NCBI GenBank assembly: GCA_041545745.1
Contig: CP168152.1
Coordinates: forward strand, 494,001-558,000
Direction: 5' to 3'
Length of the DNA: 64,000 nt
From: Stenotrophomonas indicatrix
GTDB lineage: Bacteria > Pseudomonadota > Gammaproteobacteria > Xanthomonadales > Xanthomonadaceae
The notes below the pieces were generated by a model that worked only from the letters and a program-made list of their open reading frames with translations, searched no databases and had not been told where the DNA came from. This document shows positions 44,483 through 59,642 of this stretch, piece after piece. How positions within the stretch are numbered: position 1 is the first letter of the stretch; each line of letters starts with the position of its first letter. The position numbers were made by a program, and so were the translations under genes.

Positions 44483-44605
44483 CGGGGGACTCCAGGTGCC
44501 GCGCACGCCCGCGCAGCGAAGGGGAGGAGTCACGACAGGCAGGCACGCGCCGATGCCGCGGCCATCGCCACAGACATCCAGCGCCATGCCCACCGCATCG
44601 CGACC

Positions 44606-44790
44606 TGAGGCTTCCGGGCCGGTCTCCGGGCTCGCCGCCGGGTGGCCCAAGGCCACCGTCCAGGCGCCTTCCCATGCCTGCGGCACAGTGGCGGGTTGCC
44701 TGGAACTGACGTGCTTACCGTTGCGGGGGCAGCGCCGGCATGGCGTGTTGTCACGCGTCACCGGCTTCCCGTTTCAACCTGCCGGCAGGG
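44606..44790 (-). promoter_or_regulatory. Cobalamin (AdoCbl) riboswitch of btuB
   Basis: Read on the minus strand the leader contains, in order, the conserved pieces GGGAAGCCGGTG, CTGCCCCCGCAACGGTAAG, GCCACTG, CATGGGAAGGCG and GAGCCCGGAGACCGGCC (B12 box). They are spaced as in the class I cobalamin riboswitch. About 120 bases separate it from the btuB start. Expected to switch off btuB when B12 is plentiful. Confidence 0.93.
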
Positions 44791-44996
44791 CCGCAGGTCA
44801 CCTGGAAGTGCGCGCAGTCTACGGCATCGCGGCCGGGCCGTAGCGTTGAATCTGCGCGACCGGAGGGGCGCGGATGCACCTGCACGGTGCAGCAGACCGG
44901 CGCCAGCGCCTAGAATGCAGCTCGAATTATCGTGGTGCCGTTGCCGATGTCCGTCTGTTTTCCGCTGTTCCCGCGCCGCCCTGACTGGGCACGCGC

Positions 44997-58734: not shown

Positions 58735-58830
58735 CGCAGGGCGGAGGCCCTTGCGTGCGAATGTCCTCCGGCGCCGGCCGTTGGCCGTCACCTCCCCCTT
58801 TACTTCGCACGCAAGGGCCTCCGCCCTGCG
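58735..58830. repeat. Structured repeat, family B copy 1
   Basis: Perfect 27-base inverted arms (58735-58761, 58804-58830) around a 42-base centre. The centre is about 80 percent identical to the reverse complement of the centre of copy 2, while the arms are unrelated to those of copy 2. Confidence 0.75.
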
Positions 58831-58900
58831 TCCGGAGCTCGTCGGCGTCTCATTGAAGGGCCGTCGCGAGCGCTGCATCTGCGCGCCGCAAGCCGAGCCT

Positions 58901-58998
58901 CGTCGGGGCGGGTAGGGGTCTGGGCAAAGTAAAGGAGGAGGGGGCGGCCGCAGGCAGGCGCCGGGGGACATTTGCCCAGACCCCTACCCGCCCCGACG
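58901..58998. repeat. Structured repeat, family B copy 2 (opposite orientation)
   Basis: Perfect 28-base inverted arms (58901-58928, 58971-58998) around a 42-base centre. No open frame of interest. Together with copy 1 it fills most of the 583-base spacer after the asparagine-synthetase-like gene. Confidence 0.75.
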
Positions 58999-59055
58999 GG
59001 GCCCATCAGTTCGCAGAACGTCCAGACGAAGAGGCGCTCCAGAATCCAGACGCCA

Positions 59056-59187
59056 GGCAAAAAAAGACCCGGCAGAGGGAGGGATCTGCCGGGTCCGGAT
59101 TGCATGGGGGGAGGGACCCATGCAATGAGCGTGGGCGTCGCGCCAGTGGCTGTTGCCAGTCGCATCCGCCGTGCATTTGCGTTGATG
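59056..59187 (-). ncRNA. Candidate small RNA with two C-rich-loop hairpins (sX13-like)
   Basis: On the minus strand: -35 TTGCAT (59216-59221), 16-base spacer, -10 TATGCT (59194-59199), so a start near 59187. Two perfect hairpins follow: 59099-59126 with 10-base arms and 59066-59095 with 11-base arms, both with the same loop, UCCCUCCC in RNA. The second ends in seven T and acts as terminator. Xanthomonad sX13 RNAs likewise show C-rich loops that can pair with Shine-Dalgarno sequences. No open frame of note inside. Confidence 0.6.
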
Positions 59188-59221
59188 CAATGCAGCATAC
59201 GCCGATCATGCGGCAATGCAA

Positions 59222-59254
59222 CAAAAATCACGAAGGCGCCGTCTCCGGCGCCTT
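59222..59254 (-). terminator. Terminator of queD
   Basis: AAGGCGCCG / CGGCGCCTT stem with a 4-base loop (59233-59254), followed on the minus strand by CGTGATTTTTGT. 26 bases after the queD stop. Confidence 0.8.
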
Positions 59255-59279: not shown

Positions 59280-59642
59280 TCAGGCAGCAGGGCCGCGGTA
59301 GCGGCAGCCCGAGGTGCAGGTTTCGTGCACGGTGATCTCGCTCAATGCCGGCAGGACGGGCTTGAGCTCGTTCCAGATCCACACCGCCAGATTCTCGCTG
59401 GTCGGGTTCTCCAGGCCGGGGATGTCATTGAGGTAGTGGTGGTCCAAGCGGTCATAGATCGGCTGGAAAGCCGCCTTCACGTCGCCGAAATCCATGATCC
59501 AGCCGGTCTGCGCACCCGGCTCGCCCTCGACCTTCAGTTCCACCCGGAAGGAGTGGCCGTGCAGGCGCGCGCATTTGTGCCCCGGCGGCACGTTGGGGAG
59601 GCGGTGCGCCGCCTCGAGCATGAAGACTTTGAAGATTTCCAT
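59280..59642 (-). CDS. queD: 6-carboxy-5,6,7,8-tetrahydropterin synthase
   Basis: 120 residues, standard QueD length. Zinc and catalytic residues in F-x-A-A-H-R-L (His13), [10 protein letters not shown] (Cys24, His28, His30) and L-D-H-H-Y-L (about 66-71), with E in H-E-T-C near 107. Converts dihydroneopterin triphosphate to CPH4 in queuosine synthesis. Monocistronic with its own terminator. Confidence 0.95.

Follow-up and report, generated by a model that had tools for sequence, protein, structure and literature searches.

A predicted small RNA of Stenotrophomonas indicatrix with twin anti-Shine-Dalgarno loops, traced by genome comparison to a phasin mRNA 3' end

Why does a short spacer next to queD in Stenotrophomonas indicatrix carry two hairpins with the same C-rich loop, and where did they come from? 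The pair lies on the minus strand at 59066-59126 of the window, by which is meant the whole 64,000 nt stretch that was analysed (contig CP168152.1, positions 494,001 to 558,000). Comparison with related genomes (G-numbers denote genomes and L-numbers loci, and G000 is the genome of the window) traces the RNA to the gene of a phasin, a PhaP-like protein of storage granules. In most relatives examined the hairpin pair is the 3' untranslated region (3'UTR) of a phasin mRNA encoded downstream of queD, and by the same comparison the phasin coding sequence has been deleted in G000 and in several other lineages, with the promoter element and the hairpins kept.

Two hairpins with one loop

Hairpin 1 (59099..59126, minus strand) folds with ten Watson-Crick pairs around the loop UCCCUCCC at 59109-59116, and no U-run follows it. 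Hairpin 2 (59066..59095, minus strand) carries the same loop at 59077-59084 on a terminator stem, with 11 pairs and a terminal G-U in the minimum free energy fold, and runs into seven T (59059..59065, minus strand) that would mark the 3' end of the RNA. A reading of the letters alone (the sequence-only reading) had described two perfect hairpins with identical loops, the last an ideal terminator, and both points are borne out. Ten minus-strand hairpins of the window have nine or more pairs and a loop of 4-12 nt; this is the sole twin among them that shares an identical loop of at least 6 nt, and ten dinucleotide-shuffled sequences, with 3-8 such hairpins apiece, contained no twin. The 166 nt region folds with a z-score of -4.27, equalled by none of 200 shuffles, and no further copy of TCCCTCCC was found when both strands of the window were scanned. 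A coding RNA was considered and rejected: the window's frames that cross the hairpins continue beyond the terminator, and in L020 and L027 no ATG lies in the leader ahead of the hairpins.

The stems covary around nearly invariant UCCCUCCC loops. An alignment of 30 sequences contained 21 pairs, seven of them with two-sided changes. With 62 chosen homologues (51 distinct) such changes were seen in 15 of the 21 pairs, 97.7% of cells were paired and none of 500 shuffles scored as high, in an alignment that leans towards structure because it was fitted to the covariance model; sliding the partners by 1-3 columns lowered pairing to 37-45%. The first loop is UCCCUCCC in 35 of the 51 distinct sequences, across 26 stem combinations, and the second is [U/A]CCCUCCC in 36 of them, across 30 combinations. 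The earlier proposal that the anti-Shine-Dalgarno (anti-SD) loops are under selection is thus supported as far as sequence goes. Conserved stems with unconserved loops would, according to that proposal, have told against it; the opposite was observed, apart from 8 of the 51 second loops that lack the motif. A real, selected, structured RNA is very likely.

Descent from a phasin mRNA and repeated loss of the protein

When the region was compared with 61 genomes by BLAST, 33 gave matches. Every one of these belongs to the genus of the window, which was represented by 37 genomes with its own counted, and in 22 of the 33 the query was broken into two parts. The promoter element lies 417-450 nt upstream of hairpin 1 in 19 of 30 loci, with a frame of about 115-135 amino acids (aa) in between, and a hidden Markov model (HMM) recovered a phasin frame in a further four (L018, L023, L029 and L030). 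The other arrangement, found in seven of the 30, is stand-alone: the promoter element is 53-102 nt upstream and the phasin frame is absent. Pfam PF09361 (Phasin_2) matches the protein of this frame in 15 of 23 same-genus genomes, and the same search found no phasin in G000. What remains there is a fossil of about the last ten phasin codons (59143..59172, minus strand), recognised by alignment with the phasin 3' ends of L003, L004, L006 and L009, in which the stop codon TGA has become TGG at 59143-59145; positions 50-168 of the BLAST query are 95% identical to G009 (the genome of L006). The window's promoter is fused to these last codons at a short CAACG repeat, which we read as a microhomology junction. 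Among the 30 loci of the family that a covariance model ranked best, 28 show the end of a phasin frame 35-82 nt upstream of the match centre; it is missing from the window's own locus and from L207, which belongs to a different genus. Viewed as a 3'UTR-derived small RNA (sRNA), the element shares the 3' end and terminator of the mRNA in relatives, and in the window the coding part is lost.

The association with phasin was examined in a wider set. A pattern scan of named genomes returned at least 118 stretches; of 80 listed, 40 were examined (35 titled Xanthomonadaceae and five others). Among the matches listed, 31 of the 35 Xanthomonadaceae loci have a phasin 20-56 nt upstream, 13 of these being titled Xanthomonas. 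The four without phasin are two Pseudoxanthomonas, S. chelatiphaga and the metagenome-assembled genome UBA4619, the latter two being probably identical with the genomes of L026 and L025, respectively, and the five other loci examined lack phasin and look like chance matches. A strict hairpin (CCTCCC/CCCTCC, loop up to 20) stands at the phasin 3' end in 34 of 85 loci, compared with 21 of 1622 background windows, using frames chosen by a crude composition score that was wrong at least for L062. By family, this hairpin occurred in f1 (22 of 26), f2 (3 of 3), f11 (3 of 5), f12 (5 of 27) and f3 (1 of 7), and at none of the phasin 3' ends of f5 (0 of 1), f4 (0 of 3), f9 (0 of 10) and f7 (0 of 3). 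A looser test identified the phasins with the HMM, which left 77 of the 85 loci because eight gave no phasin match. CCTCCC/CCCTCC stood no more than 120 nt from the phasin stop in 46 of these 77, and the figures for other frame ends and for windows were 9 of 188 and 59 of 1456, respectively. When 26 of the 51 strict negatives were folded, several of them, L047, L059, L063 and L107 included, proved to have C-rich loops of greater length.

The covariance model, run on 119 genomes of the family at E <= 0.001, found the element in 38, representing 17 of 46 genera, with a single match in G000 (model R1). Twelve of 13 weaker model matches were examined, and six adjoin a phasin. Two side observations came from these searches. 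Three genomes of genus g21 each have one more locus (L233, L234 and L235), without a phasin, in which tandem hairpins with C-rich loops occur together with a terminator; it may encode a further anti-SD sRNA. G481 has a phasin-bearing copy, L211, and also a possible paralogue, L236, in which twin C-rich hairpins stand without a phasin.

The neighbouring gene queD (59280..59642, minus strand; NCBIfam TIGR03367, 109.9 bits against a cut-off of 89.25) is the conserved upstream neighbour, and a queD frame occurred in 76 of 76 loci examined, a count in which some genomes appear twice and adjacency was not confirmed locus by locus. On a queD tree of 71 rows there are six changes between phasin-bearing and stand-alone states, the stand-alone groups being L001/L002, L017/L026/L247, L025/L027/L246, L020, L207 and L367/L428; 13 rows were omitted as duplicates, of which L217 and L219 (both phasin-bearing) are in fact not duplicates of rows kept. 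A single stand-alone clade was rejected on the first 63 rows (approximately unbiased test, p-AU 0.00045). The phasin-bearing L028 is sister to the stand-alone L020 and nested among stand-alone rows, a pattern that suggests either that phasin was regained by exchange or that it was lost twice independently, and because one change may therefore be a regain, at least five losses are claimed. All 12 phasin-less rows keep the promoter element (nine by pattern, plus L207, L367 and L428). Retention of the hairpins in these rows proves nothing, since the rows were found through their hairpins, but a count free of that bias comes from the ten same-genus genomes without PF09361 (G000, G002, G003, G007, G014, G015, G016, G021, G096 and G121; G015 is 83% complete), of which eight keep the hairpins. 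As the hairpins persist after deletion of the phasin gene, the RNA probably has a function of its own, connected with carbon storage.

This bears directly on two simpler explanations. The hairpins might be only a 3'-end or stability element of the phasin mRNA, a tandem terminator left over in G000; hairpin 2 is indeed a textbook terminator and the element does sit at mRNA 3' ends, but hairpin 1 has no U-run to match, near-fixed loops on varying stems run contrary to what a mere terminator would require, and both the retention in eight of ten phasin-less genomes and the promoter element kept in the stand-alone rows go against it, so that we regard this explanation as unlikely. Autoregulation in cis, in which the loops would act on the ribosome-binding site of their own mRNA, is suggested by the presence of SD-complementary loops within the same transcript. 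It appears very improbable, as five Stenotrophomonas phasin leaders of nine tried (L006, L009, L019, L021 and L028) have no GGAGG between the palindrome and the ATG, and the element is kept where the phasin is gone, in stand-alone lineages that cis action leaves unexplained.

The promoter element and PhaR

The conserved promoter/operator element (59183..59223, minus strand) was recognised by pattern and conservation and consists of two TGC-rich palindromes of the TGYTGCANTGCANCA type, one exact (59183-59197) and one with a single mismatch (59209-59223), which overlap a putative -10 (59194-59199) and -35 (59216-59221), respectively, with transcription probably starting near 59187. The sequence-only reading had called this a good promoter. 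As a sigma-70 promoter it is poor: judged by eye, TTGCAT-16-TATGCT (59221-59216, 59199-59194) agrees with the consensus at about 7 of 12 positions, and a sigma-70 scan did not report it; what stands is that the element is conserved ahead of the phasin gene in relatives. A terminator-like hairpin after queD (59233..59254, minus strand) separates queD from the RNA's own promoter.

In other bacteria, passages of published studies describe PhaR as a repressor of phaP that is titrated by the storage polymer (PMC4873508, PMC9049629, PMC3570403), and TGC-rich phaP promoter DNA is reported there to be recognised by PhaR (PMC3570403). The exact 15-mer palindrome occurs at two places in the whole G000 genome, one of them the promoter of the RNA, and a copy with one mismatch precedes phaR. 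In the order as a whole, the TGCANTGCA palindrome lies upstream of 33 of 77 phasins, compared with 7 of 371 control windows from the same loci, and it also lies upstream of the window's hairpins. PhaR (PF07879) is encoded in 23 of 23 same-genus genomes searched. From these observations we infer that the promoter of the RNA is under PhaR control. G000 also encodes a class III PhaC (527.6 bits, cut-off 365.3) and PhaE (212.9 bits, cut-off 154.95), so polymer synthesis is probably intact there although the phasin is gone. A wider PhaR regulon did not emerge, as no polymer genes were seen at six one-mismatch operator loci in G000, checked by eye only.

Known RNAs, candidate targets and meaning

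The sequence-only reading had named the element a probable sX13-like sRNA. An Rfam scan gave nothing above cut-off for the region, nor did five Xanthomonas loci bearing the element match any Rfam family over its cut-off. In a lax scan the best score of any sRNA family was that of alpha-r14 (30.1 bits, cut-off 58.8), followed by sX13 (27.7, cut-off 50), anti-hemB (25, cut-off 49.5), RF02278 (20.8, cut-off 50) and alpha-r8 (12.6, cut-off 41). Membership of the sX13 family (RF02232) would account for that partial score and for the C-rich loops, but the score is below cut-off, the element adjoins queD and not polA, it has two loops and not three, and the true sX13 ortholog is found elsewhere in the genome (G000:C1:4504727-4504840, 117.2 bits), beside a polA (DNA polymerase I) frame named by eye. 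We give this identity next to no chance. The resemblance is one of design: as described in passages of PMC3771888, sX13 also has stable stems and C-rich loops, the loops being required for it to repress mRNAs that carry G-rich motifs close to their start codon, and it does not need Hfq, whereas its three loops differ in sequence and it is a separate gene, so that G000 carries both RNAs. The part of the earlier proposal in which selected anti-SD loops would work in the manner of sX13 is supported to the extent that sequence data allow.

Other systems share traits with the element. The betaproteobacterial double-hairpin (toxic) sRNAs of RF02278, among them ncS03, ncS05, ncS27 and ncS62 of Burkholderia, also have two hairpins with loops complementary to ribosome-binding sites, but they occur in three to five copies per genome with other loops, and none was matched in G000 at E <= 0.001. 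Kinship with them through phasin was rejected, with a phasin frame in 0 of 30 RF02278-like loci, while the phasin HMM recovered all eight positive controls. A search of 274 genomes from the class at E <= 0.001 turned up RF02278-like double hairpins in 82 (L155-L184 examined), only two of them over the cut-off. Like alpha-r14 (RF02344), one of the cuckoo-type RNAs, the element has tandem hairpins with CCUCC loops, but no kinship in sequence is shown at its sub-cut-off score. MmgR/SisA (alpha-r8, RF00519) has an anti-SD motif as well, and MmgR is reported to lower the levels of polymer and phasin and to be repressed by AniA(PhaR) (passages of PMC8401924 and PMC12559287); it differs in being a separate sRNA gene that acts on phasin and is not within the phasin mRNA. 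Origin from an mRNA 3' end is shared with RsmU, from comEA in Xanthomonas (passages of PMC7694677), and with ncS63, which goes with hemP in Burkholderia (passages of PMC5688073), but those involve other mRNAs and mechanisms, and here the coding part has repeatedly been lost. The Burkholderia RNAs ncS03, ncS05, ncS27 and ncS62 have predicted targets in carbon transport, and overexpression of ncS27 attenuates growth, according to excerpts of the same study (PMC5688073). No description of the present RNA was recognised in the openly licensed literature, judged mostly by title and the start of the abstract, and phasin goes unmentioned in passages of two papers on Xanthomonas sRNAs.

Candidate targets follow from the loop. 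The duplex of the loop with GGGAGGGA has an energy of -15.5 kcal/mol, compared with -10.4 for the ribosomal anti-SD and GGGAGGGA. The pattern GGGAGGGN3-11ATG occurs 58 times in G000 (reversed pattern, 19) and 73 times in G013 (reversed, 28). Orthologs were compared using frames of at least 60 aa, available after all 58 G000 sites and all but two of the 73 G013 sites, and nine orthologous genes carry the pattern in both genomes: a tripartite ATP-independent periplasmic (TRAP) transporter DctP binding protein, the propionate-CoA ligase PrpE, a TonB receptor, a GH97 glycosidase, a nucleoside-H+ symporter, a MatC/CitMHS dicarboxylate carrier, a DUF2147 protein, a NodT-type outer-membrane channel and a short-chain fatty acid transporter. 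Seven of the nine look, in our own grouping, like carbon uptake or activation, which provides a lead. Direct action on the polymer genes was considered and discarded: neither GGGAGG nor GGAGGG occurs in the 2.1 kb phaR region, and the one occurrence in the 4 kb PhaC/PhaE region is on the opposite strand.

Most likely, then, the RNA acts in trans as an anti-SD sRNA, in the manner of sX13, the Burkholderia double-hairpin RNAs and MmgR/SisA. PhaR would repress its promoter until storage polymer titrates PhaR; where phasin remains, the RNA would be the 3' end of the phasin mRNA or a product of its processing, and in G000 it would be made as a stand-alone transcript. The two loops would then pair with ribosome-binding sites of the GGGAGGG type and block translation, the carbon-uptake genes being the leading candidates. 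We consider it reasonably probable that this whole chain holds, i.e., that an anti-SD sRNA of about 130 nt, born in a phasin mRNA 3'UTR and controlled by PhaR, represses carbon-uptake mRNAs when polymer is made. That the RNA is instead a sponge, which captures a protein or a different RNA bearing G-rich stretches and does not silence mRNAs directly, is unlikely: two identical loops would give avidity, but no partner is known, and the C-rich loops differ from the GGA motifs that RsmA/CsrA binds. There is a precedent in Caulobacter, where excerpts of PMC12559287 describe a sponge of an anti-SD sRNA (CrfA/SisA).

Several observations weigh against the proposed PhaR-controlled, trans-acting sRNA. 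The covariance model found the element in only 38 of the 119 family genomes, and six of the twelve weaker matches examined (L233-L237 and L241) lack an adjoining phasin. Two of the ten phasin-less same-genus genomes have no clear hairpin pair (G007 gave no match, and G016 one of only 22.4 bits), and the second loops that lack the motif are short. TGCANTGCA is missing from 44 of 77 phasin upstream regions, and the palindrome, assigned to PhaR through resemblance only, is possibly its operator. Finally, the carbon-uptake theme may be due to chance, and GGGAGGG is itself a strong SD sequence.

Other features of the window were noted. Directly downstream of the RNA, at 58735-59002, are inverted repeats of 27 nt (100%) and 32 nt (97%), a further pair, of 52 nt (81%), spans 58757-58975, and several relatives have similar sequence downstream of their hairpins. 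A cobalamin riboswitch lies at 44600-44820 (minus strand; 92.7 bits, full-length model match).

The locus bears on the way in which new sRNA genes arise, since it displays the states before and after in closely related species, several times over, and G000 carries a deletion scar. Tentatively, and as a possibility that falls a little short of probable, the phasin locus of Xanthomonadaceae may be a two-product gene, specifying a granule protein and an anti-SD sRNA, both of which would be switched on by titration of PhaR, so that, once the store is full, the translation of carbon-uptake genes would be shut down; the RNA would then be the part on which selection insists, the protein having been deleted at least five times with promoter and RNA retained, and the locus would show in stages how the tail of an mRNA turns into an sRNA gene. 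If PhaR does control the RNA, there would be a direct route from polymer storage to the translation of uptake genes. A Xanthomonas phaR mutant is described, in passages of PMC6304360, as growing more slowly, being hypermotile and making almost 75% less exopolysaccharide, and an over-made RNA could account for part of that phenotype.
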